DNA of 39,846 nucleotides, taken from assembly GCA_020723385.1 (NCBI GenBank), contig DYIZ01000047.1, positions 1 to 39,846 of the forward strand, read 5' to 3'. Source of the DNA: Candidatus Aquidulcis sp. (GTDB lineage: Bacteria > Chloroflexota > Anaerolineae > Anaerolineales > UBA4823). Of the stretch, positions 2,644 through 23,552 are shown piece after piece (the first letter of the stretch is position 1; every line of letters begins with the position of its first letter). A program made the translations under genes and the position numbers. A model generated the notes under the pieces. That model saw only the letters and a list, made by a program, of their open reading frames with translations, searched no databases and was not told the origin of the DNA.

Positions 2644-3414
2644 ATGTCTGAGCTGGTTATCCGTGACTTGCATGTCAACATCGGTGATAAGGAAATTCTG
2701 AAAGGTGTCAACCTGACTGTGAAGCAAGGTGAGGTTCATGCCCTAATGGGGCCGAACGGCACCGGAAAATCTACGCTGGCGTATAGTTTGATGGGCCATC
2801 CGGGTTACACAGTGACCCAGGGTGAAGCCTGGTTCAAAGGGCAAAATATCCTCGCCCTCGAGCCGGATCAGCGTTCTCGGTTGGGTCTATTCTTGGCTTT
2901 TCAGTATCCAGTGGCGATCCCCGGCGTCTCGGTGGCTAATTTCCTGCGCACGGCGATCAACGCGCATCGCAAAGCGGAAAATTCTGCCGAGAAAGGCATT
3001 ACGATCCCCGAGTTTCGCAAGCTGCTCAAAGGCAAGATGGCCATGCTCAAGATGGATTCGTCTTTTGCCGGGCGCTATCTGAACGATGGCTTTTCCGGCG
3101 GCGAGAAGAAGCGCGCCGAAGTGCTGCAAATGGCCGTGCTGACCCCGCAGATTGCAATTCTCGATGAAACGGACTCGGGCCTGGATATTGATGCGCTGCG
3201 TGTCGTTTCAGAGGGTATCAATGCCCTGCGCGGCCCCGACCTCGGCGTGCTGGTGATCACACACTACCAGCGCATCTTGAATTACATCAAACCCGATTTT
3301 GTCCATATTTTTATGGACGGTCAAATTGCGATGTCCGGCGGCGCAGACCTGGCGCTGCGTCTGGAAGAGCAGGGGTACGAATGGTTGAAAGAGAAGAACG
3401 GTGAGCCGGCGTAG
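2644..3414 (+). CDS. sufC: Fe-S cluster assembly ATPase SufC
   Basis: This 256-residue ABC-type ATPase has the normal SufC length. It shows Walker A G-P-N-G-T-G-K-S-T at 36-44, the signature F-S-G-G-E-K-K-R at 150-157, Walker B I-A-I-L-D-E at 170-175, and T-D-S-G-L-D, the SufC form of the D-loop. SufC forms the SufBC2D scaffold with SufB and SufD in the cytoplasm and drives their conformational change by ATP hydrolysis. A GGAG Shine-Dalgarno lies nine bases before the ATG. It is the first gene of the suf operon, as in many SUF loci of Gram-positive and related bacteria. Confidence 0.97.
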   Translation: MSELVIRDLHVNIGDKEILKGVNLTVKQGEVHALMGPNGTGKSTLAYSLMGHPGYTVTQGEAWFKGQNILALEPDQRSRLGLFLAFQYPVAIPGVSVANFLRTAINAHRKAENSAEKGITIPEFRKLLKGKMAMLKMDSSFAGRYLNDGFSGGEKKRAEVLQMAVLTPQIAILDETDSGLDIDALRVVSEGINALRGPDLGVLVITHYQRILNYIKPDFVHIFMDGQIAMSGGADLALRLEEQGYEWLKEKNGEPA

Positions 3415-3499: not shown

Positions 3500-4903
3500 A
3501 TGAGCGACGCAAAAATACTCGAGGGAATAGGTGAATATCAATTTGGCTTTAGCGACCCCGACACCTTTGTTTTCAGGTCTCGCAAGGGGTTGGATGCCGA
3601 TGTGGTCAAGCAGATTTCGACCATGAAGGGTGAGCCGCAATGGATGTTGGATTTCCGCCTCAAAGCGCTGGATCACTACCAGAAGCGGCCAATGCCCACC
3701 TGGGGCGGCGACCTGACCAAGCTGCATCTTGACGACATTTATTACTACGTCAAGCCAGCGGATCAAGAAGCCCGCTCGTGGGACGATGTGCCTGATACGA
3801 TCAAAAAAACCTTCGACAAGCTGGGCATTCCCGAGGCTGAGCGCAAATTCCTGGCCGGCGCGGGCGCACAGTACGACTCGGAGATGGTGTACCACCAGAT
3901 TCACGAAAATCTTTCCAAGCAAGGTGTGATCTTTGTCAGCATCGAGGACGGTCTGCGTAACTACCCCGACCTGTTCAAACAATACTTCAGCACTGTCATC
4001 CCTATCGAAGATAACAAATTCGCGGCCTTGAATAGTGCCGTTTGGTCGGGCGGCTCGTTTATCTACGTTCCACCCGGCGTGAAGATCGAGCTGCCATTGC
4101 AGGCTTATTTCCGCCTGAACGTCGCCAACATCGGGCAGTTCGAGCGCACGCTGATCATCGCCGATGAGGGAGCGCAGATTCACTACATTGAGGGCTGCAC
4201 GGCGCCTACTTACACCACCGACTCCTTCCACTCCGGTGTGATCGAGATCATGGTCAAGAAGAACGCCCGTGTGCGTTACACCACCATCCAGAACTGGTCT
4301 ACCAACGTGTACAACCTGGTCACGCAGCGCGCCCTGGTTTACGAGGGCGGCACGATGGAATGGGTGGACTCGAATCTAGGCTCGTGCTTGACTATGAAGT
4401 ACCCCAGCATCTACCTGCTCGGTCCCGGCGCGAACGGCGAGATTCTCTCGATGGCTTTTGCCGGCCCCGGACAGCATCAGGATGCGGGCGGTAAAGTCAT
4501 CCACGTCGCCCCGCACACCAGCAGCAAGATCACTTCAAAATCCATCAGTAAAGGCGGCGGACGCACCTCCTATCGCGGCCTGCTCAAAGTCCACAAAGGC
4601 GCGGTGGGTACCAAATCCAGCACGGTCTGCGATGCGCTGCTGCTCGACCCGCAATCCCGCTCGGACACATACCCGTACATCGAGATTGACGAGGAAGACG
4701 TTACCATCGGGCACGAGGCGACTGTCTCGAAGGTGGGCGAGGAACAGCTCTTCTACCTGATGAGCCGTGGCCTCTCCGAAGAGCAGGCCACTACCATGGT
4801 CGTCTCTGGCTTCATCGAGCCGATGGTCAAGGAACTGCCGATGGAATACGCCATCGAGTTGAATCGCCTTATCCAGTTGCAGATGGAAGGATCAATTGGT
4901 TAG
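3500..4903 (+). CDS. sufB: Fe-S cluster scaffold protein SufB
   Basis: The protein has 467 residues from the ATG at 3500, chosen because GGAG lies six bases upstream and the sequence from M-S-D-A-K starts the usual SufB N-terminus. A frame opening 24 nt earlier lacks support. It carries the long right-handed beta-helix typical of SufB/SufD. The V-C-D-A-L-L segment contains Cys377, likely equivalent to the cysteine needed for cluster assembly in E. coli SufB, and the C-terminal [13 protein letters not shown] motif is diagnostic. SufB receives sulfur and builds the nascent Fe-S cluster within SufBC2D. sufD starts one base after its stop codon. Confidence 0.97.
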
Positions 4904-4904
4904 C

Positions 4905-6254
4905 ATGGCAACCCGCACTGTTGTTACCCGTACCCGAAAGATCGAAACCGCCGCCCCGCGTGATTTTACCTTCACCCGTGAGATGATCCCGGCGTTATCT
5001 GGAACCGCCGAGGGGCCTGATTTCCTGCGAGAATATCGCGCCCGAGCGTGGGACGCCTTCCAGCGCACGCCCTTGCCCGTCACTACCGATGAGGCCTGGC
5101 GGCGAACGGATTTGAAAGACCTGGCGGTTGGCTCCTTTCGCCTGCCGCCCGCCGGGATGACTTTCCCGCCGGTTCCCAAAACGCTGCTCAAGCCCTTGAC
5201 AGGGGCCGCCCATGGCGGGCAGGTGATCCTTTCTCCTGGCAAAGTAAGCAAAGAGATCAACGCCGAGCTGGCCGCCAAAGGGGTCATCTTCACCGATCTC
5301 GCCACCGCGGAGCGGGATCACCCCGGTATCCTGGCGACCCTCATCGGCCAGGTAATCCGCCCCGACGCCGGCAAGTTTGCCGCGCTCGCCGCGGCTTTCG
5401 CCCAGAATGGCGTCCTCGTTTACGTTCCGCGCGGCGTGCAGGTGGAACAGCCGCTGCACAGCGTTCTGTGGGGGCCGGGCAGCGGGTTGGCGCACTTCTC
5501 CCATGTTTTGGTTTGGGTAGATGATGACGCCTCCCTGACCTTCGTTCACGAGGCAGCCTCGCCTACCGAGACGGAAGGGCAAACGCTCCACAGCGGGATC
5601 GTCGAAATCCAGGTGGGAGCGAACGCCCACCTGACGTTCGTTGAGCTGCAATCGTGGGGCGAGCACGTGTGGAATTTCAGCCACGAGCGGGCGCGGGTTG
5701 GCAGAGACGGCACGCTGAATTGGATTTTCGGCGCTATCGGCAGCCGTTTGACGAAGAATTTCTCTGACCTCGATTTACTTGGCGAAGGCTCCACCGGGCG
5801 CATGTCGGGGTTCTACTTTACCGATGGGATGCAGCACCTCGATCACGATACGCAGCAGAACCATCTGGCCCCGCACACCACCAGCGATTTACTGTTCAAG
5901 GGCGCTTTGACAGGCAAGAGCCGCTCAGTCTGGCAGGGGATGATTTATGTTGCGCCGGGAGCCGATAAAACCGACGGCTACCAGGCCAACCGTAATCTGG
6001 TGCTCAGCAACCAGGCCAGGGCCGATTCGATCCCCGGCCTCGAGATTTGCGCCGACGATGTGCGCTGTACACATGGGGCGACTGTGGGTAAAATAGACCC
6101 CGAGCCGCTGTTTTACCTGGCGAGCCGGGGTATTCCGCACGCTGAAGCAGTTAGCTTGATCGTGGAGGGGTTCTTCGACCCGATCATGCAGCGCATCCCG
6201 TTCGAGGGTGTGCGCGCCCGCTTCCAGCAGGCAATCCGCGACAAAATGGCGTAA
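4905..6254 (+). CDS. sufD: Fe-S cluster assembly protein SufD
   Basis: The protein has 449 residues from ATG 4905; an in-frame TTG at 4896 has the better-placed GGAAGGA ribosome site (4885-4891), so the true start could be nine bases earlier. The N-terminal third is helical and includes D-E-A-W-R-R-T-D-L-K, typical of SufD. The C-terminal half is the beta-helix with L-A-P-H-T-T-S-D-L-L-F-K-G and the C-T-H-G-A-T-V-G histidine motif. SufD pairs with SufB in the SufBC2D scaffold and is needed for iron acquisition. The order sufC-sufB-sufD is preserved. Confidence 0.95.
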   Translation: MATRTVVTRTRKIETAAPRDFTFTREMIPALSGTAEGPDFLREYRARAWDAFQRTPLPVTTDEAWRRTDLKDLAVGSFRLPPAGMTFPPVPKTLLKPLTGAAHGGQVILSPGKVSKEINAELAAKGVIFTDLATAERDHPGILATLIGQVIRPDAGKFAALAAAFAQNGVLVYVPRGVQVEQPLHSVLWGPGSGLAHFSHVLVWVDDDASLTFVHEAASPTETEGQTLHSGIVEIQVGANAHLTFVELQSWGEHVWNFSHERARVGRDGTLNWIFGAIGSRLTKNFSDLDLLGEGSTGRMSGFYFTDGMQHLDHDTQQNHLAPHTTSDLLFKGALTGKSRSVWQGMIYVAPGADKTDGYQANRNLVLSNQARADSIPGLEICADDVRCTHGATVGKIDPEPLFYLASRGIPHAEAVSLIVEGFFDPIMQRIPFEGVRARFQQAIRDKMA

Positions 6255-14389: not shown

Positions 14390-15127
14390 TTACGACACTG
14401 GCAGCCGCTCATCCCCAATTGCCTGGCCAATTTCTGGGCTGACCAGCATATAGCCTACACCCGGACAACGCAGGAGAATCTTCGGGTGGGAGGGGTCGGC
14501 CTCGAGTTTTTGGCGCAGATACCGGATATAAGCGCGCAAGTAATCCAGGTCATTGCGATACTCCGATCCCCAAACAGCAGTCAAGAGCTGCTCGTGCAGC
14601 ATCACCTGGTTAGCGTGGGTTGCCAGCTCATGCAGCAAGCTGTATTCGGTGGGCGTGAGGTGGACTTCTCGCCCGTGCAAAGTCACATGGCGGCGCGCAA
14701 GATCAATCTTCATATCCCCACAGACAATTTCAGCTTCGGCGGGCGTGGCCGGCTCGCCCTTAGAGCGTTTGATCACCGCCCGGATACGCGCCAATAGCTC
14801 CTTGGCGCTGAACGGCTTGGTAATATAGTCGTCGGCGCCAACCTCGAAGCCTTGCAGCTTATCCGATTCACGTACTTTGGCGGTGAGCATAATGATGGGT
14901 ACATCCGAGAATTCGCGCACCCGCCGGGCTACACCGTAGCCGTCAATCGCGCCCGAAAGGATGATGTCGAGAACGATCAAATCGGGCTGTTCCACCGCTG
15001 CCATCTCGACCGCGTGGTTGCCGCTGCACGCTACCAGGACCTCGTAGCCGGTCGCCGATAGAATTTCGTGTACCAGGCGAACCAGCTTGGGTTCATCGTC
15101 AACGACCAGGATTCGGCCTTTGCTCAT
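14390..15127 (-). CDS. OmpR/PhoB-family response regulator
   Basis: The protein has 245 residues from the ATG at 15127-15125, which overlaps the kinase stop (ATGA). The receiver domain (residues 4-118) has the acidic pair Asp10-Asp11 in V-V-D-D-E-P, phospho-acceptor Asp54 in I-V-L-D-I, and the conserved Lys in Y-I-T-K-P-F. The C-terminal winged helix (about 135-230) contains L-T-P-T-E-Y-S-L-L, D-L-D-Y-L-R-A-Y-I-R-Y-L-R and the terminal G-V-G-Y-M-L of the KdpE/PhoB type. It binds DNA when phosphorylated by the kinase encoded immediately upstream. Its target genes are not evident. Confidence 0.95.
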   Translation of the reverse strand: MSKGRILVVDDEPKLVRLVHEILSATGYEVLVACSGNHAVEMAAVEQPDLIVLDIILSGAIDGYGVARRVREFSDVPIIMLTAKVRESDKLQGFEVGADDYITKPFSAKELLARIRAVIKRSKGEPATPAEAEIVCGDMKIDLARRHVTLHGREVHLTPTEYSLLHELATHANQVMLHEQLLTAVWGSEYRNDLDYLRAYIRYLRQKLEADPSHPKILLRCPGVGYMLVSPEIGQAIGDERLPVS

Positions 15128-16419
15128 ACATCCTCGAGTGATGTTTTGGATTTTGGCAGGGAGAAATACAGCGTGGTCCCCTCGCCGGTTTTGCTTTCGA
15201 CCCAAATGCGTCCCCCGTGGGCTTCGACAATCGCCCGGGCAACCGGCAGCCCCAACCCGGTTCCAGCGATGTGGTAACCGGTTGCCGAGCGGACGCGGAA
15301 ATACTTCTCGAAAATGGGGATCAAATCCTCGGGAGAGATACCAATCCCCTGGTCTGCAATGCTGATGACCACATCTATGGTGCGAATCTCACCCCGGATG
15401 ACGATCAGCCCCCCTTCGGGCGAGTAGCGGATTGCGTTTTCGATGATATTGCGGAAGACTTGTTTGATCCAGCGGGGATCCACTTCCACGAGGGGAAAAT
15501 CCGGGGGAAAATCTACAATGATTCGGTGGTTGTCTGTGCGCCGCTGGGCGTCCGTGGCGACTTCGTTGGCGAACTGTGGCAGCCGCAGGGGCTGCTTTTC
15601 GAGAGCGAGCTGCTCGACCTCGATTAGAGAAGAATCGAGAATATCCTTCAACATGACTTGCATGTTGTCGCACTCGTCTTCGATGAGAGTGAGGAACTCT
15701 TTCTGCTTTTCGATGGGCCACTCGACTTCATCCAATAGGAGCGCTGAGGAATATCCCTTGATCGCTGAAAGTGGCATGCGCAGCTCGTGTGACAGGGTTG
15801 CCATAATCTCAGCGCGCAAGTGCTCTGTACGGCGGCTTTCTCGTACAGCATCGGCCTGGGTTTCCAGGCGGTCGCGGTCAATTGCCAGCGCAATCAGGTC
15901 AGCCAGCGTTTGAACGAAGGGAAGATTTGCCTGGGTGAAGGGGATCGTGTCGTTCAGCGATTCGAGCACCAGCACCCCATATTTTTGCTCCCCCACAACA
16001 ATAGGTGCGGCCAGGACACTGTTTGGAGACACATCGGCATGTATCGAGCGATTGAAAATATCACGGTTGTAGGGGCGCATGTCTGCCATCGCCGCGGCGA
16101 CTTCGACAGGTGTGGGGAGCAAGGTTGCCCGCCCTTCATCGTAAACTTTCCCGGTGATCGATTCCCCGGCGCGCAGCCCCATGTCTTTCAGCACATCCAT
16201 ATCGAAGCCGAATGTGGCCGCCGGGCGGAAAAGGCCTGCCGGTTGATCCCACAACATCGCGACGCCGACATCGGCTTGTTCAACCACGCCGATGATCTTT
16301 TTCATCACAGCATCAAGTAGCTCTGGCAGCTCGAGCGGCGAGGTAATGGTTTTAGCGACTTCGGTTAGAGCGTGTAGCTCTTTGCCCAGGCGTTCTTGGC
16401 CGTTTTGGGTAGCGAGCAT
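15124..16419 (-). CDS. GAF-domain sensor histidine kinase
   Basis: This 431-residue protein has a GAF sensor domain (about 25-175), a HisKA dimerisation domain with His211 in L-S-H-E-L-R-M-P-L-S-A-I-K-G-Y, and an ATPase domain with N-I-I-E-N-A-I-R-Y, I-A-D-Q-G-I-G-I and G-T-G-L-G-L-P-V-A. No transmembrane segment or signal peptide is present, so the sensor is cytoplasmic. The similarity of its core to KdpD-type kinases suits the KdpE-like partner. It is the first gene of a two-gene leftward operon with the response regulator. The signal sensed is unknown. Confidence 0.93.
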   Translation of the reverse strand: MLATQNGQERLGKELHALTEVAKTITSPLELPELLDAVMKKIIGVVEQADVGVAMLWDQPAGLFRPAATFGFDMDVLKDMGLRAGESITGKVYDEGRATLLPTPVEVAAAMADMRPYNRDIFNRSIHADVSPNSVLAAPIVVGEQKYGVLVLESLNDTIPFTQANLPFVQTLADLIALAIDRDRLETQADAVRESRRTEHLRAEIMATLSHELRMPLSAIKGYSSALLLDEVEWPIEKQKEFLTLIEDECDNMQVMLKDILDSSLIEVEQLALEKQPLRLPQFANEVATDAQRRTDNHRIIVDFPPDFPLVEVDPRWIKQVFRNIIENAIRYSPEGGLIVIRGEIRTIDVVISIADQGIGISPEDLIPIFEKYFRVRSATGYHIAGTGLGLPVARAIVEAHGGRIWVESKTGEGTTLYFSLPKSKTSLEDV

Positions 16420-16502: not shown

Positions 16503-17111
16503 TTACCCTTTGAGCAGAAATGCGCACTGGGTCAATCCCTGTGGCGTTCGTTCGAGACGTGCGGTCTGTGTTGCCGATAAACCAGTGAGGCGCTCCAATA
16601 AGAAAGCATCCAACTGGCAAAGTTCGGGATGTTCCGGCAGAATGGCGGCATACGGGCAATGGTTGAAGACAATACGCGGCGCATTGGCGCGCGCTTCCCA
16701 ACGCGCCAGGTAATTCATCGTATTGAGGTGATTGACGCCGTGAGTCAGGCGTTGGGTGAGGTTCCCCTGGACTGACTCATGTTCGCCGGAGATATGAGCG
16801 GCGAGTCGTCTGAGCAAGTCAGTTTGCTTTTCAGGTGGTGTCCCGGTCAGCGCGTCTTGCAGGAGAGCGTTCGACAGCCCGTCGAGATTGTGCTGTAACA
16901 CCTGCCGGGTGACGCCGTAGAGCAAGCTTGGGCGGCCTCGTGTCCGAGCGGGGCGCTGCCCAACAAGCTCCACTGCCCCCTCGGAGATCAGAATCGCCAG
17001 GTGGTGGCGAGCGTTGGCGGCGCTCATCTTCAGCGCCCGGCTGATATCTGCTGGTGTGGCTACCTTTTTGATCTGTATATAATCGAGCAGGCGCTGGCGT
17101 GTGGTTTTCAT
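16503..17111 (-). CDS. SufR-like winged-helix regulator with three cysteines
   Basis: The protein has 202 residues from the ATG at 17111; a start at 17138 is possible, but the promoter lies so close that 17111 is preferred. The winged helix (residues 4-65) includes T-P-A-D-I-S-R-A-L, N-A-R-H-H-L-A-I-L and the wing T-R-G-R-P-S-L-L-Y. The C-terminal part keeps C-P-Y-A-A-I-L-P-E-H-P-E-L-C (Cys152, Cys165, the C-x12-C of SufR) and Cys196, but the third family cysteine is replaced near Arg-Leu-Glu-Arg. It may bind a cluster with a non-cysteine ligand. It is divergent from the nuo genes, with an 11-bp inverted repeat between them, so it probably controls them and itself. Confidence 0.8.
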   Translation of the reverse strand: MKTTRQRLLDYIQIKKVATPADISRALKMSAANARHHLAILISEGAVELVGQRPARTRGRPSLLYGVTRQVLQHNLDGLSNALLQDALTGTPPEKQTDLLRRLAAHISGEHESVQGNLTQRLTHGVNHLNTMNYLARWEARANAPRIVFNHCPYAAILPEHPELCQLDAFLLERLTGLSATQTARLERTPQGLTQCAFLLKG

Positions 17112-17118
17112 CACGCCG

Positions 17119-17147
17119 AGTATACTCCTATATGTCAATTATGCAAA
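17119..17147 (-). promoter_or_regulatory. Promoter of the three-cysteine regulator (TTTGCA-17-TATACT)
   Basis: On the minus strand TTTGCA (17147-17142) and TATACT (17124-17119) are 17 bp apart. The -10 ends seven bases before the ATG at 17111, implying a very short or absent leader. The -35 lies inside the left arm of the inverted repeat at 17137-17164, consistent with autoregulation. Confidence 0.55.
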
Positions 17148-17164
17148 TATTGGTTTGCATAATT
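17137..17164. promoter_or_regulatory. Candidate operator: 11-bp perfect inverted repeat between regulator and nuoB
   Basis: AATTATGCAAA (17137-17147) and TTTGCATAATT (17154-17164) are exact complements with a 6-bp spacer, the size expected for a winged-helix dimer site. It covers the -35 of the regulator promoter and ends four bases before the nuoB -35. The sequence differs completely from the sufR/sufC repeat, so the two regulators should have different specificities. Confidence 0.6.
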
Positions 17165-17168
17165 CAGG

Positions 17169-17196
17169 TTGACAGTCCTTCCAAATTCGGTATAAT
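17169..17196 (+). promoter_or_regulatory. nuoB operon promoter (TTGACA-16-TATAAT)
   Basis: TTGACA (17169-17174) and TATAAT (17191-17196) are exact consensus hexamers with a 16-bp spacer. The predicted start near 17203 leaves a leader of about 75 nt before nuoB. Confidence 0.75.
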
Positions 17197-17277: not shown

Positions 17278-17955
17278 ATGAGTGAAGAGATCAATTCTCC
17301 CGGTTACGATATTCCCCCTGAGATGCAGGCCCAGGTCAGGATCACTACACTCGATAAAATCTACAACTGGGGTCGGCGTTCGTCCATCTGGCCGATGATG
17401 TTTGGGCTGGCTTGCTGCGCTATCGAGATGATCTGCACCGCTGCCAGCCGCTTCGATTTTGCCCGCTTTGGCATGGAGATCATGCGCCCCAGCCCCCGTC
17501 AAGTAGATTTGATGATCGTCTCGGGCACGGTTACGAAGAAAATGGCGCCGCAGATTGTCCGGCTCTACAACCAGATGCCTGAGCCAAAGTACGTCATCGC
17601 CATGGGCGCGTGCGCCTCGGGCGGGGGCCCTTTCAAGGAAGGCTACAACGTTGTCGCCGGTATTGACCGGTACATCCCGGTGGATGTGTATATCCCTGGC
17701 TGCCCTCCCACGCCCCAGGCTTTGCTGCACGGTTTCATTCGGCTGATGGAAAAAATAGACAAAGAATCGATCAGCACCTCGCGCTGGTATCGCAAAGAGC
17801 CTATCCCGGCGATCCCGGTTCCTATTCTTGGCCCGGATATTTTTGACCCTCGCCAGGCTTCTGCAATCACCGCATACACGCAGGAAAAGCTGGCCAAACA
17901 AACCCAGGCTGAACAAGCCCCAGCGGAACCAGCCGCCGCGCCAGAACAGGCTTAG
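17278..17955 (+). CDS. nuoB: NADH-quinone oxidoreductase subunit B
   Basis: The protein has 225 residues from ATG 17278, which has GGAGG ten bases upstream; an earlier ATG at 17221 would add a poorly conserved stretch. The ligands of cluster N2 are present: Cys46-Cys47 (G-L-A-C-C-A-I-E), Cys112 (G-A-C-A-S-G-G) and Cys142 (P-G-C-P-P-T-P). NuoB lies at the junction of the peripheral and membrane arms of complex I and passes electrons to quinone. An Ala/Pro/Gln-rich tail of about 30 residues ([11 protein letters not shown]) is longer than usual. It is followed 15 nt later by nuoCD. Confidence 0.96.
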
Positions 17956-17970
17956 AACGGAGCAGCCAGC

Positions 17971-19704
17971 ATGGAACAAACACCTACTTTGACCTCGACC
18001 CTCGAGACTCGTTTCCCCGAAGCTGTCGTCCGCGATGAGCGAAAAGGTTTCTCGGGTTATCTCGTCAAACCCGAGAGTTTGATCGAAGTTGCCACATTCA
18101 TTCGGGACGAGATGGGCTACGATTATCTATCTTCCGTCACCGGCGTGGATTATCTGCCGGAAGGCAAGATGGAAGTGGTTTATCACGCTTATAAAAGCAC
18201 CGGCGGCTCGGCGCTCGTCTTCAAAGCGCAGACGCCGCGCGATAACCCGGTTGTGCCCTCGTTGGTACCCCTCTATCCCGGCGCAGACTTGCAGGAGCGC
18301 GAAGCCTGGGATTTGCTCGGCATCCGCTTCGAGGGCCATCCAGACCTGCGCCGCATCCTGATGTGGGAAGGCTTCGAAGGCCATCCTTTGCGCAAAGATT
18401 GGCGCGAGGCTTTCTTTGAAGAAGAAGGCAAACCCTTCAAGAACCGCTGGCCCGAAGGGCGTGCTTACCGCATCGAAGATAAGAATCTCTTCGGCAACAA
18501 CGTGGATTATCCCGCTGGTTTCAACCCCGAAAACTGGACGCTCGATGGCGAAGCTGCCCTGTATGGCTCAGTCGGGCAGGCAGTTCAACCGGATGGATCG
18601 CTGAAAACCGACGCCATCATCGTCAACCTTGGCCCGCAGCACCCCTCCACACACGGCGTTTTCCGCATGGCTGCCCGGCTGGATGGCGAGACCATCGTGG
18701 ATCTCAAACCAGTCATGGGGTACCTGCACCGCAATCACGAAAAGATTGGTGAACGCAACACCTACCTCGGCAACATGCCATTCACCGACCGGCTGGATTA
18801 CCTCTCCTCGATGAGCAACAACTTCGGTTACGCCCTGGCGGTGGAGAAATTAATGGGCATCCGCCCACCCGAACGCGCCGAATACATCCGGGTCATGATG
18901 GCCGAGCTGACTCGTATCTCCAACCACCTCATGGCGATTGGCGCGCTGATGAACGATCTCGGCGCGTATTTCACCCCGATGTTGTACGCACTCGAAGAAC
19001 GTGAGTTGGTTCTCGACATCTTCGAGGCCGTTTCCGGCTCGCGCATGATGTGCAACTATTTCCGCTTTGGCGGTGTGGCGCGTGACTTGCCCGAGGGCAT
19101 CCTGGAGAAAGTGCGCGTCTTGGTTTACGATCGCCTGCCGCGCAAGATGGAAGATTTGGACGTTTACATCACCCAGAGTGAGATTGTCCGCAATCGCTGC
19201 GAAGGGGTGGGTGTGCTGACTCCGGAGCAGGCGATCGCCCTCTCGATGGCGGGTCCTGTCCTGCGGGCGTCCGGCGTCCCCTACGATGTGCGCCGCGCCG
19301 ATCCCTACAGTATCTACGACCGCTTTGAGTTCGATGTGGCAGTCCGCTATCACGGCGACATCTACGACCGGTACCTGATCCGTATGGATGAGATTCGCGA
19401 ATCGTGCCGCATCCTCCAGCAGGTGGTGGATACCATCCCCGAAGGCCGCATCCAGGAAGGCAAGCCCCAGTACCAGGTGCGCGTCCCCGCTGGCGAAGCT
19501 TACGGCCGCGTCGAGGGGCCGAAGGGCGAGCTTGGGTTTTACGTGGTCTCCAACGGGAAACCGAACCCCTGGCGGTATCACGTCCGCGCCCCATCGTTTA
19601 TCAACTTGACTGGTTTGGGGCCAATGTCCATCGGGAACAAGATCGCTGATGTTGTGGCGGTGCTCGGCTCGATTGACATCGTTCTCGGTGAGACTGATCG
19701 GTAG
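17971..19704 (+). CDS. nuoCD: NADH-quinone oxidoreductase fused subunits C and D
   Basis: This 577-residue protein is a NuoC-NuoD fusion. Residues 1-190 are NuoC-like: D-Y-L-S-S-V-T-G-V-D-Y, the E-R-E-A-W-D-L-L-G-I-R-F-E-G-H-P-D-L-R-R segment, and H-P-L-R-K-D-W. Residues 210-577 are NuoD-like: N-L-G-P-Q-H-P-S-T-H-G, then G-Y-L-H-R-N-H-E-K, and the end G-S-I-D-I-V-L-G-E-T-D-R. The subunit helps form the quinone site with NuoB. Fusion is known in E. coli and other groups. GGAG precedes the ATG. nuoI follows after nine bases. Confidence 0.96.
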   Translation: MEQTPTLTSTLETRFPEAVVRDERKGFSGYLVKPESLIEVATFIRDEMGYDYLSSVTGVDYLPEGKMEVVYHAYKSTGGSALVFKAQTPRDNPVVPSLVPLYPGADLQEREAWDLLGIRFEGHPDLRRILMWEGFEGHPLRKDWREAFFEEEGKPFKNRWPEGRAYRIEDKNLFGNNVDYPAGFNPENWTLDGEAALYGSVGQAVQPDGSLKTDAIIVNLGPQHPSTHGVFRMAARLDGETIVDLKPVMGYLHRNHEKIGERNTYLGNMPFTDRLDYLSSMSNNFGYALAVEKLMGIRPPERAEYIRVMMAELTRISNHLMAIGALMNDLGAYFTPMLYALEERELVLDIFEAVSGSRMMCNYFRFGGVARDLPEGILEKVRVLVYDRLPRKMEDLDVYITQSEIVRNRCEGVGVLTPEQAIALSMAGPVLRASGVPYDVRRADPYSIYDRFEFDVAVRYHGDIYDRYLIRMDEIRESCRILQQVVDTIPEGRIQEGKPQYQVRVPAGEAYGRVEGPKGELGFYVVSNGKPNPWRYHVRAPSFINLTGLGPMSIGNKIADVVAVLGSIDIVLGETDR

Positions 19705-19713
19705 GAGCGTGCT

Positions 19714-20325
19714 ATGTATGGATTTGGCGTAGTCAAAGGTTTGGGTGTTGCCCTCAAGCACCTGGTCGAATCATATCTAGATGATATCAAGCGTTGGGGA
19801 TCGCGCTATCGCACGAAAGAAGGCATTGCATACCGCAGCAGTAGCGAAACGCGTGGCGTCTTTACCATTCAATACCCCGAAGAAAAGCTGCCGGTGCCCG
19901 AAGAATTCCGTTTCATCCCCTTTTTGCTCTACGAAACGGATGAAAACGGGAATCAAGCTGACCGCTGCACATCGTGTGGGATTTGCGCCAAAGTGTGCCC
20001 TCCCCAGTGCATTTGGATCGTGCGCACGTCCGATCCCAAAACCGGCAAGCCCATCCCGGCTCCGGCGGAATTCTATATTGACGTGGACATCTGCATGAAC
20101 TGCGGGCTGTGCGCCGAATACTGCCCCTTCGACGCGATCAAAATGGATCACGATTACGAGATCGCAGTTTACGACCGTCTTCACACCAACCTGTACGACA
20201 AGGCAAAGCTGTCCAAGCCGGTCGAATATTACGCCTCCATCCGGCCGACGAATTACGCCCGTGAAGAGGCCGCCCGCGCCGAAGCTGAAGCTGCCCGCGC
20301 CGCCAAGAAAGCCGCGGCGGGATAG
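19714..20325 (+). CDS. nuoI: NADH-quinone oxidoreductase subunit I (2x[4Fe-4S] ferredoxin)
   Basis: This 203-residue protein has two C-x2-C-x2-C-x3-C-P cluster motifs: Cys85, 88, 91 and 95 (C-T-S-C-G-I-C-A-K-V-C-P) and Cys127, 130, 133 and 137 (C-M-N-C-G-L-C-A-E-Y-C-P). They hold clusters N6a and N6b, which carry electrons toward NuoB. The C-terminal tail (R-A-E-A-E-A-A-R-A-A-K-K-A-A-A-G) is an Ala/Glu/Lys helix not found in E. coli NuoI. No genes for membrane subunits (A, H, J-N) or the NADH module (E, F, G) follow, which is unusual. Confidence 0.95.
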   Translation: MYGFGVVKGLGVALKHLVESYLDDIKRWGSRYRTKEGIAYRSSSETRGVFTIQYPEEKLPVPEEFRFIPFLLYETDENGNQADRCTSCGICAKVCPPQCIWIVRTSDPKTGKPIPAPAEFYIDVDICMNCGLCAEYCPFDAIKMDHDYEIAVYDRLHTNLYDKAKLSKPVEYYASIRPTNYAREEAARAEAEAARAAKKAAAG

Positions 20326-20330
20326 GTTGG

Positions 20331-20684
20331 ATGTATAATCAGGATACCGACCTGTTATTCCCGCCCCGCTTGATCCCGGCCCTGCGCAGTTTACGCGGTG
20401 CCGTGTGGCAGGAGCTTGTGGATAAGGTCGCGGCTCAGGAGCCGGCAGCGCTCGACCGCCTGGCATTTGAGTTGCTCATGGTGCGCCTCGGTAGCTGCGC
20501 TTCGTGCCAGGCGGATTCTTATAAAGCGATGCATGGTTGCACGCAGTGCGCTTTACAGATAGTGCGCCGTTTTCGTGGCAGTGATCACGATCTCGTTGCA
20601 ATGTTTCAACAGGCGCTGCAAGATGTGGCCCGGTATTTGGAAAAAACTCGAAAGGTAGAACAAAGTGAATCAGATTACCAGTGA
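20331..20684 (+). CDS. Small four-cysteine protein of unknown function in the nuo operon
   Basis: This 117-residue, mostly helical protein is not recognised. It carries C-x2-C-x10-C-x2-C (Cys56, Cys59, Cys70, Cys73; G-S-C-A-S-C and H-G-C-T-Q-C), a plausible zinc or Fe-S site. The C-terminal 40 residues look like an amphipathic helix ending in a charged tail (R-K-V-E-Q-S-E-S). It begins five bases after nuoI and overlaps the GTG start of the Mrp gene by 20 nt, so it is translationally tied to both. Context suggests a complex I assembly or electron-transfer accessory; this is inference. Confidence 0.75.
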
Positions 20685-21744
20685 ACAAGCTGTTCTGGCC
20701 GCGCTTGGAAAGGTACAGGAGCCAGAATTACACAAAGATTTGGTCTCGTTGAACATGATTCGGGATTTGAAGATTGACGGCGGTAAAGTTGCATTTACCA
20801 TAGTTTTGACAACGCCTGCCTGCCCGTTGAAGACCCAAATCGAAAGGGAAGCGCGTAACTCGGTGGCGGCAATACCCGGTGTGACCACCGTCGAAGTCAA
20901 GATGGACGCCAATGTGCCCAATGATGGCCGTTCACGCGGTTTGATGCAATTACCCATCCGCAATGCCATTGCCGTTGCTTCAGGCAAGGGCGGCGTGGGC
21001 AAGAGCACGGTTGCCGTGAACCTGGCGGTTGTGCTGGCGCAGAGCGGCGCCCGCGTCGGGCTGCTCGACGCCGACATCTACGGACCAAATGTGCCCACCA
21101 TGATGGGCGTTTCCAGCCTGCCGCCTCAGACCGGCGAGAAGCTGACCCCCGCTATCGCTTATGGTGTCAAGTTGATGTCCATCGGCTTTCTGGTTAAACC
21201 TGGGCAGCCGCTCGTTTGGCGCGGCCCGATGCTGCACTCTGCAATTCGCCAATTCCTGAGTGATGTTGTCTGGGGCGAGCTGGATTATCTCGTCATTGAT
21301 CTCCCGCCTGGCACCGGTGACGCCGCCCTCAGCCTGGCGCAGAGTCTCCCGCTCAGCGGGGCTGTTATTGTCACCCTGCCGCAGCAAGTCTCCCTAGACG
21401 ATGCCCGCCGCGGGCTGGAGATGTTTCGCATGTTGAACATCCCGATCTTTGGGGTAGTCGAGAATATGAGCTACCTCGAATTGCCAGACGGCGCCCGGAT
21501 GGACATCTTCGGCTCTGGCGGCGGCGAAAAACTCGCCCGCGAGGCTGGTGTGCCCTTTATCGGCCCGATCCCGATGGACCCATCGGTGCGGGTTGGCGGT
21601 GATCAGGGTACGCCAGTGGTTGTGTCCAATCCAGAGTCGCCCGTGGCTCGCGCCTTGTGTGCGATTGGAGAAGACATCGCAGCCAAGATCAGTGTGGCTG
21701 CCATCCAACAAGCTGGCCCAATCCCGATCGAGATGGTTGGATAA
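20665..21744 (+). CDS. Mrp/ApbC-family P-loop ATPase
   Basis: This 359-residue protein starts at a GTG (20665) preceded by AAAGG. An N-terminal MIP18/DUF59 domain (about 5-85, with T-T-P-A-C-P) is followed by a ParA-like ATPase with the deviant Walker [10 protein letters not shown] starting at residue 107, L-D-A-D-I-Y-G-P-N and I-D-L-P-P-G-T-G-D. The family carries or inserts Fe-S clusters; the human homologue Ind1 (NUBPL) is specific for complex I. The C-P-x-C cluster ligands usually found after V-V-E-N-M-S are absent here (E-L-P-D-G instead). Placement right after nuo genes supports a role in maturing complex I. Confidence 0.93.
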
Positions 21745-21750
21745 TTGCTC

Positions 21751-22830
21751 ATGCAACCCATACAGCCTACGATCGTTGGCGTCTGTTTTCAAAAAGGTGG
21801 GAAAATTTACCATTTTGCAGCCGGCAATGTGACCGATCTTCACACGGGAGATTATGTCGTTGTCGAAACCAGCCGCGGCATTCAATTGGGGCAGGTGACC
21901 CATTTTGTCGCCGAGCCGACACCACCCCCGGAGGGGGTCTGGAAACTCATCCAGAGGCGCGCCAGCCAGCGCGACCTTGTCGAACGCCAGACCTGGCAGG
22001 ATAAGGAAACCGCCGCGACCATCAGTTGCCGTGAGAAAGTTTCAGAGCTGAAACTGGCGGACATGAAAATTGTCTCCGCAGAATACAGCCTGGATGGGAC
22101 GCGTCTGACTTTCATGTACTGCTCCGAGGCCGGCGATAAGCTCGACTTGCGCGGGCTGCGCAAAGGTCTGAGCCGCCAATACCCTCATACCCAGGTGGAT
22201 TTGCACCAGGTCGGGCCGCGGGATGTGGCGAAATACCTGGGCGGCATGGGCGCTTGCGGCCTGGAGTGTCGCTGCTGCACTGCCTTCCTGACCGATTTCA
22301 GCCCTATTTCTATCAAAATGGCGAAAGACCAGGGCATCTCTCTGACGCCCACTGAAATAACCGGGATGTGCGGGCGTTTACGCTGCTGCCTGGTTTATGA
22401 GTACGAACAATACGCCGAAGCTCGCAAGCACCTTCCCAAAAAAGGCAAGGTCGTCATGACCCCGCTCGGCGAAGCCAAGGTATTAGAAGTCCTGGCGCTC
22501 AAAAATTCGATCCTGGTCGAGCTGCCCACCGGAGCCAGGCACGAATTCACCGCGGATGATCTGCGACCCAAAGAAGAATTGGATGCTTTGGTTCAAAAAG
22601 CAGGCGCGCCCTCGCCCGTCAATCTGGAGCCATCCGAGTCCCAGATATCCTTTGAGCCGTCCGTCGAGACTGAGGCACAAAAGCCTGCGCCCTCTGCGAA
22701 ACCCGCACCCTTTGTAAAGTCTGCGCCGCATACAAAGCCTGGACAACATGGTAAGCCTGGGCCGCAAGGTAAGCCTGCGCCTTCCACCAATAAACCTGAC
22801 CGCCCCGCCCGCAAAGGAAAGAAAAAGTGA
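21751..22830 (+). CDS. PSP1-domain protein (YaaT/RicT-like)
   Basis: The protein has 359 residues from ATG 21751. The PSP1 C-terminal domain spans about residues 60-155 (A-E-Y-S-L-D-G-T-R-L-T-F, L-R-G-L-R-K-G-L-S). A cysteine cluster follows: G-L-E-C-R-C-C and M-C-G-R-L-R-C-C, the RicT pattern. In B. subtilis the RicT-containing complex carries Fe-S clusters and affects RNase Y. The last 50 residues are a low-complexity basic tail of K-P-A-P / K-P-G-P repeats ending in K-G-K-K-K, probably disordered. It overlaps the PIG-L gene by GTGA. Cluster binding fits the Fe-S context but is not shown here. Confidence 0.88.
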   Translation: MQPIQPTIVGVCFQKGGKIYHFAAGNVTDLHTGDYVVVETSRGIQLGQVTHFVAEPTPPPEGVWKLIQRRASQRDLVERQTWQDKETAATISCREKVSELKLADMKIVSAEYSLDGTRLTFMYCSEAGDKLDLRGLRKGLSRQYPHTQVDLHQVGPRDVAKYLGGMGACGLECRCCTAFLTDFSPISIKMAKDQGISLTPTEITGMCGRLRCCLVYEYEQYAEARKHLPKKGKVVMTPLGEAKVLEVLALKNSILVELPTGARHEFTADDLRPKEELDALVQKAGAPSPVNLEPSESQISFEPSVETEAQKPAPSAKPAPFVKSAPHTKPGQHGKPGPQGKPAPSTNKPDRPARKGKKK

Positions 22831-23552
22831 CGGATACGCCCGATGGCTGGTCAACGCCGCAACGAATCCTGGTCGTTCTGGCTCACCCAGACGACCCGGA
22901 ATTTTTCTGCGGCGCGACGACCCTGCGTTGGATCAAGGCTGGGCATGAAGTGCGTTACTGCCTGCTCACCTGCGGCGATAAGGGCACAAAAGACATTTCC
23001 CTGGATACCGGTGAGTTATGCCGGATACGGCAAATCGAACAGCGCACCGCGGCTTCCGTATTGGGAGTCAAAGCAGTGCGATTTCTGGGATACGAAGATG
23101 GCTACCTCGTTCCCGATTTGCAGTTGCGCCGAGACGTGACGCGGGTGATCCGCCAGGAGCGTCCAGATATCCTGGTCACCTGCGACCCCACCACACTTTT
23201 CCCCGATAACAGCCGCCTCAACCATCCCGACCACCGCGCCGCCGGGCAAGCCACGCTCGATGCGGTATTCCCTGCGGCGCGCGACCACCTCAACTTCATC
23301 GAATTGTGGCGTGACGAGCATCTCGAACCGCACATCGTGCGTGAAGTTTGGGTTTGCGGCACACAGCAGCCCAACGTTATCCTGGATGTTACTGAATTCT
23401 GGGAAACGAAAATACTGGCCCTTTACGAACACAAAAGCCAAATCGGTGACCCGCAGCAGCTTGCAGAACGTATGCGAAACCGCCGGACGCCAGACAGCAC
23501 GCCAGAGCAGCCCCGCTACGAGGAGAAGTTTCGTCGTTTGATCCTCGGGTAG
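22827..23552 (+). CDS. PIG-L/LmbE-family deacetylase
   Basis: This 241-residue protein starts at a GTG overlapping the stop of the PSP1 gene. The zinc-binding motif A-H-P-D-D (residues 19-23) is followed by N-H-P-D-H further on, as in MshB and BshB N-acetylglucosaminyl deacetylases. Such enzymes remove acetyl groups from sugar conjugates in low-molecular-weight thiol or glycolipid synthesis. The substrate here is not known; no neighbouring gene belongs to a thiol pathway. It is the last gene before a terminator. Confidence 0.9.
   Translation: MTDTPDGWSTPQRILVVLAHPDDPEFFCGATTLRWIKAGHEVRYCLLTCGDKGTKDISLDTGELCRIRQIEQRTAASVLGVKAVRFLGYEDGYLVPDLQLRRDVTRVIRQERPDILVTCDPTTLFPDNSRLNHPDHRAAGQATLDAVFPAARDHLNFIELWRDEHLEPHIVREVWVCGTQQPNVILDVTEFWETKILALYEHKSQIGDPQQLAERMRNRRTPDSTPEQPRYEEKFRRLILG

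Follow-up and report, generated by a model that had tools for sequence, protein, structure and literature searches.

The regulator and its cysteines

We analysed a 39,846-bp stretch of DNA from Candidatus Aquidulcis sp., referred to here as the window, in which a gene for a SufR-like regulator is divergent from an operon that begins with nuoB (Table 1). A TTG start at 17138, taken from a mechanical list of open reading frames, was considered unlikely for the regulator as it would fall within the inverted repeat of the intergenic region. The protein was modelled with a mean pLDDT of 92. In this predicted structure the winged helix-turn-helix matched the ArsR homologue 1uly (Z 12.3, 69 residues), and the best PDB matches of the C-terminal domain were BcsD structures (8poc_A, Z 11.5, rmsd 3.1, 123 aligned residues, 8% identity). 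The sensor domain of ArnR has been described as TRAPPC3-like (PMC12343034). On the same strand, 83 bp downstream of the regulator (14390-16419), lie genes for a sensor histidine kinase and response regulator pair, which is mostly not kept beside it in the relatives. No relatives were found in viral contigs.

Table 1. Features of the regulator-nuoB locus, with positions in the window.
Feature	Position	Strand	Basis or remark
SufR-like regulator, 202 aa	16503..17111	-	ATG start at 17111; open reading frame and translation; Pfam HTH_20 and HTH_5 above cut-off
C-terminal sensor domain, residues 73-202	16503..16895	-	contains all three cysteines; model match to BcsD structures
C196, third putative Fe-S ligand	16524..16526	-	41/43 by column; invariant in alignment A3
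C165, second putative Fe-S ligand (C-x12-C)	16617..16619	-	invariant in 43/43; also in A3
C152, first putative Fe-S ligand	16656..16658	-	invariant in 43/43; also in A3 (44 rows)
N-terminal winged helix-turn-helix, residues 1-74	16890..17111	-	Pfam; predicted model
Regulator promoter, TTTGCA-17-TATACT	17119..17147	-	-35 inside the operator; layout shared by most relatives
Putative operator, AATTATGCAAA-TATTGG-TTTGCATAATT	17137..17164		11-bp inverted repeat, both arms perfect; 28-bp site with N6 spacer
nuo operon promoter, TTGACA-16-TATAAT	17169..17196	+	consensus 12/12; begins just past the operator
nuoB	17278..17955	+	NCBIfam NuoB subfamily models above cut-off
nuoCD, fused	17971..19704	+	Complex1_30kDa and Complex1_49kDa
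nuoI-like ferredoxin subunit	19714..20325	+	TIGR01971 NuoI best, 90 bits, below cut-off 113; Fer4 domains
117-aa protein, C-x2-C...C-x2-C	20331..20684	+	no Pfam or NCBIfam family; same place (nuoI-apbC) in many relatives
ApbC/Mrp-type Fe-S carrier ATPase	20665..21744	+	PRK11670 ApbC and MrpORP, ~296 bits, below equivalog cut-offs
PSP1-domain protein	21745..22830	+	PF04468; synteny, kept in operon
PIG-L family deacetylase	22827..23552	+	PF02585; synteny, often last of the conserved cluster

In a wide sense the regulator has the architecture of SufR, an ArsR-type winged helix-turn-helix followed by a C-terminal C-x12-C-x27..30-C arrangement. The NCBIfam equivalog model of SufR, TIGR02702, gave 22.9 bits (E 5.7e-5), far from its cut-off of 178.8. 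The suf-linked SufR of the window likewise fell below this cut-off with only 98.9 bits, suggesting that the cut-off is tuned to cyanobacteria. The regulator adjoins nuoB, and a separate SufR gene is found at sufC. Since both the model score and the suf linkage fail, the regulator is not a SufR in the strict sense, and we infer a SufR-type mode of action.

The only cysteines of the protein are C152, C165 and C196, spaced C-x12-C-x30-C; in the two rows without a column-aligned C196 a cysteine is present at a slightly shifted position. Where the window's first SufR (1793-2437) has its third cysteine, the regulator has another residue, and no third cysteine of the four-cysteine type is conserved among the rows of its clade. 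The preliminary description was thus right that this third cysteine is absent, but its absence is no deviation, because published SufR and ArnR require only three cysteines there, and we rejected it as a special feature. In M. tuberculosis SufR, C203-x12-C216-x27-C244 are essential, the extra C242 being dispensable (PMC6034842), and the [4Fe-4S] cluster of ArnR is held by C179, C193 and C223 (PMC12343034). Candidates for a fourth cluster ligand, chosen by conservation alone, are the nearly invariant H151 and the invariant D168 and E139.

The intergenic palindrome and its promoters

The repeat between the regulator and nuoB is perfect, covers the -35 of the regulator promoter and ends just short of the nuo -35, an arrangement that agrees with the preliminary description of a repeat overlapping the regulator's own -35 and abutting a consensus nuoB promoter. 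In 8 of 20,000 dinucleotide shuffles of the regulator-nuoB intergenic stretch, 11-bp arms matched perfectly across a spacer of at most 12; per shuffled 40-kb window the chance rate was about 0.1. No further copy with up to three mismatches was found in the 6.4-Mb genome to which the window belongs. The shuffles, the uniqueness in the genome and the conservation described below led us to reject a chance origin.

The consensus of the site in the relatives is TTAYGCAAA-N6-TTTGCRTAA. It scored at least 15/18 in 24 of 40 regulator-nuoB intergenic regions, a score reached in 0 of 50 shuffles of each, and at least 14/18 in 28; the other 12 (13 or below) were degenerate or had no clear match. The spacing was nearly fixed: the centre of the operator lay 41 or 42 bp from the nuo -10 in 30 of 40 loci and 25-27 bp from the regulator -10 in 32 of 40. 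This places the centre upstream of the nuo -35, about 53 bp ahead of the predicted nuo transcription start, and in most loci the nuo promoter matches the sigma-70 consensus or comes close to it. The most likely start of nuoB, judged from the sequence, is the ATG at 17278 behind a GGAGG, about 75 nt past the predicted transcription start. On the other side (17111-17124), the regulator -10 lies 6-7 nt ahead of the start codon in the window and in several relatives; with the -10 so near the ATG (7 nt in the window), the regulator mRNA is probably leaderless.

Genome scans with at most one mismatch yielded sites in 11 of the 61 related genomes, one in each, and 10 of these were at the regulator-nuoB locus. 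Across 201 genomes of the order we recovered 32 sites, 25 of them adjoining the regulator and two at iscX-nuoB promoters, and the reversed pattern used as a control gave none. With essentially one site per genome, conserved before nuoB or iscX, the operator appears as dedicated as the preliminary description had supposed, and the lack of conservation of the repeat that it had named as a refutation was not seen in the relatives. The scattered matches (G049, G258, G308, G206 and the second site of G344) had no common neighbour among the genes tested. One of them (G206, contig C41, 9377; locus L187) has a like palindrome about 184 bp further on, the two being GTAACGCAAAGTTCACTTTGCGTAAAATG and GTACCGCAAAGTTTACTTTGCGTAAAATG, and neither is near the regulator. 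A wider regulon was not found, and a PWM gave no good site at other nuo operons.

The window has a distinct palindrome at 2532-2573, TTCTGTCAATATTT...AAATATTGACAGAA, between the SufR gene at 1793-2437 and sufC at 2644-3414; its core TGTCAATATT...AATATTGACA recurs ahead of sufC in many relatives, and on sequence grounds it is likely to be the operator of the suf-linked SufR. The sufC-linked SufR paralogues carry a palindrome unlike that of the regulator, TGTCAATATTT...AAATATTGACA. We considered whether the regulator might be a second SufR serving suf and rejected this, as in the relatives another gene, of another clade, is found at sufC.

Linkage of the regulator to nuoB

In the 61 related genomes the closest homologue of the regulator was 33-51% identical, set apart from a second protein at 24-30%. 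The gene order that recurs in the relatives is the regulator and, divergent from it, (iscX) nuoB nuoCD nuoI (117-aa) apbC PSP1 PIG-L. Among the loci fetched from related genomes, nuoB was divergent on the same piece in 40 of 43 clade members; of the three exceptions, one ended at a contig end with iscX still present (G036) and two were unlinked (G035 and G048). GTDB contigs provided 48 loci from records of Anaerolineales, Anaerolineae or Chloroflexi, which overlap the 43-member sample in part; all 43 evaluable loci had a divergent nuoB, and the other five ended at a contig edge. The preliminary description had the regulator facing complex I genes and had named a usual position away from nuo genes as the observation that would speak against it; such a position is not usual, and the linkage holds.

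The tree placed the Anaerolineales regulator in a clade of its own (43 rows, support 100/100), distinct from the SufR that these genomes carry at sufC and from the other nuo-flanking regulators of the class. Six members of the order with an other-clade regulator flanking nuoB lack the site. In other orders of the class (L140-L150), SufR-like regulators of other clades are also divergent from nuoB, without the operator described here, and a repeat search gave no clear common palindrome for those that flank nuo genes outside the order. Within family f35, four loci (L146-L149) seemingly have in common a differing repeat, TYAATTCTTCT...AGAAGAATTGA.

The proposed target operon

For Chloroflexi, a complex I that contains NuoM twice, hereafter 2M complex I, has been described, with detached nuoBCDI and a fused nuoCD (PMC7117926, citing Chadwick 2018). 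The window has detached nuoBCDI genes with a fused nuoCD at 17278-20325, and another contig of the same genome (C129) encodes nuoA, H, J, K, L, M, M and N with no nuoB, C, D or I. The classical complex I of this genome is on contigs C58 and C141. We considered whether nuoBCDI might be a dead duplicate; this was not supported, as the genes are conserved and the nuoAHJKLMMN operon is without B, C, D and I. Judged from gene content, the target would be narrower than complex I genes in general: the detached nuoBCDI module of the 2M complex I, whose operon also encodes Fe-S loading factors.

One of these factors is the ApbC/Mrp-type ATPase, whose family includes Ind1, a helper of complex I cluster assembly in mitochondria (PMC7980591). 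The 117-aa CxxC...CxxC protein is a candidate for a role in assembly of, or electron transfer in, the 2M complex I. The other loading factor, iscX (PF04384; the two that were tested scored 52-57 bits, the cut-off being 25), was present in 42 of the 61 genomes, in single copy, and always at the nuo locus directly before nuoB, and in relatives it is the first gene behind the operator (for example in L053, L060 and L037). IscX of E. coli is an assistant of ISC. The gene is absent from the window's own genome, which has lost it. In one subgroup an aldehyde dehydrogenase gene separates the operator from iscX; in L126 it is at 4392-5861, on the operon strand between the regulator and iscX, and a gap of similar length in other loci, such as L127, L125 and L113, may hold the same gene.

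Proposed mechanism and alternatives

The observed site, its conservation, fixed geometry and near-uniqueness in genomes, together with the linkage, the clade, the invariant cysteines and the content of the operon, make it probable that the regulator is a SufR-family one-component regulator dedicated to a single operon, that of the 2M nuoBCDI module of Anaerolineales and its Fe-S loading factors. To these observations the proposal adds DNA binding by the regulator, Fe-S binding, the signal and the sign of control. A dimer of the regulator would bind the consensus palindrome and very likely repress its own promoter, since the site covers the regulator's own -35. While carrying a cluster, for which C152, C165, C196 and one further, non-cysteine ligand would be the ligands, the regulator would most likely repress the strong nuo promoter too. 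Loss of the cluster, its nitrosylation or its reduction would then derepress the operon, as in SufR and ArnR, and so raise expression of nuoBCDI, the connecting, quinone-reducing part, and of the loading factors, iscX (in most relatives) and ApbC/Mrp. The low TIGR02702 score, the degenerate palindrome in 12 of 40 loci and the absence of iscX from the window's own genome speak against the proposal.

Repression is the sign of nuo control that we favour, with some reserve: derepressing an Fe-S-rich module under a shortage of clusters is not obviously sensible, and the sign may be the opposite. The holo-regulator, placed upstream of the nuo -35, might recruit polymerase when the Fe-S supply is good while repressing itself. 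The near-constant spacing upstream of the -35 is what activators need, and pairing an Fe-S-demanding complex with an ample Fe-S supply makes sense; however, a promoter at or near consensus in most loci hardly needs an activator, and both SufR and ArnR are repressors, which leaves activation a possible but less probable reading. It is a good deal more doubtful that the palindrome is purely autoregulatory, with nuo a bystander sharing the intergenic region. The overlap with the regulator's own -35 is consistent with this idea, and so is one genome (G035) in which the regulator and operator are together and nuoB, 120 kb away, has no site, an arrangement that would fit pure autoregulation or a misassembly. 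Against it, the spacing to the nuo promoter is fixed and the pairing of the regulator with nuoB is conserved across many families. In addition, in three genomes of one family (G048, G268 and G301, family f13) the regulator gene is on another contig with no site beside it, but sites persist at the iscX-nuoB promoter (two in G301), suggesting that nuo is a real target in trans.

Binding of the palindrome by an unrelated factor, with the regulator binding elsewhere, is very improbable: the site accompanies the regulator's clade, is missing where an other-clade regulator flanks nuoB and hardly occurs elsewhere in the genomes, and CAAA-N6-TTTG is close to the SufR site in both its core and its spacing. 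As for the sensor, the cysteines might bind zinc or act as thiols, in which case the protein would sense redox state or metal with no Fe-S cluster, and the account of the ArnR sensor domain mentions a Zn-bound form of the structurally similar TRAPPC3 (PMC12343034). We regard this as unlikely, as the positions and the C-x12-C spacing are those of the three cysteines that M. tuberculosis SufR requires (PMC6034842), with a similar set in ArnR (PMC12343034), and the operon contains iscX and apbC.

The proposed control by the SufR-family regulator suggests that this group of Chloroflexota tunes its complex I supply to the Fe-S or redox state. Fe-S sensors control Fe-S assembly and some respiratory enzymes. 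It is an evenly balanced possibility that a dedicated Fe-S sensor governs how much of the Fe-S-rich connecting module of a high-pumping complex I is supplied, and with it the cluster-loading factors IscX and the Ind1-related ApbC/Mrp, that one operon thereby couples cofactor status to the making or repair of this part, and that the link is older than the operator. The nuo link would predate the operator because other orders show the same layout with regulators of other clades and no copy of the operator. The literature searched gave no case of a regulator that adjusts complex I formation to Fe-S status. The conserved grouping of the regulator, the palindrome, iscX, nuoBCDI and apbC at a single locus means that whether complex I supply is matched to cluster supply could be examined with a single protein and a 28-bp DNA site. 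IscX, moreover, gains a consistent partner, every copy found in these Chloroflexota being directly before nuoB.

Comparison with known systems

The regulator resembles SufR (Synechocystis sll0088; M. tuberculosis Rv1460) in its winged helix-turn-helix and its C-terminal domain with three cysteines, which are essential in SufR; the spacing is C-x12-C-x27-C in M. tuberculosis and C-x12-C-x30-C here. SufR is divergent from its target in Synechocystis and regulates itself, as predicted for the Chloroflexota regulator. Both have a palindrome with a 6-bp spacer, which at the sequence level overlaps the regulator's own promoter in our locus as well; the published operator CAAC-N6-GTTG is not matched, the putative site being GCAAA-N6-TTTGC. 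Unlike SufR, the Chloroflexota regulator is not suf-linked, scores far below the TIGR02702 cut-off, forms its own clade and has a complex I module as its proposed target.

ArnR of Corynebacterium glutamicum shares the MarR/ArsR-type winged helix-turn-helix and a C-terminal sensor with three cysteines, for which a [4Fe-4S] cluster is known, and it governs the respiratory operon narKGHJI, and hmp (PMC12343034). The preliminary description had regarded a link to a respiratory module as not established for the family; such a link is already known from ArnR, which is SufR-like, carries a [4Fe-4S] cluster and regulates a respiratory operon. The two differ in cysteine spacing, x13/x29 according to the published description of ArnR and x12/x30 here, and in neighbourhood, the narKGHJI/hmp linkage not being encountered and nuoB being the neighbour in all evaluable loci. 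The 2M complex I of Chloroflexi (PMC7117926) has the same detached nuoBCDI, fused nuoCD and membrane-arm operon with two nuoM, and the parts of that account consulted mention no regulator, operator or link to iscX.

As with IscR and other Fe-S sensors, the Fe-S status would be read by a regulator of Fe-S assembly genes, through a cluster that is putative here. IscR belongs to a protein family unrelated to the SufR-like regulator. Unlike in IscR systems, we propose that in these Chloroflexota a respiratory module and its own loading factors are under joint control.
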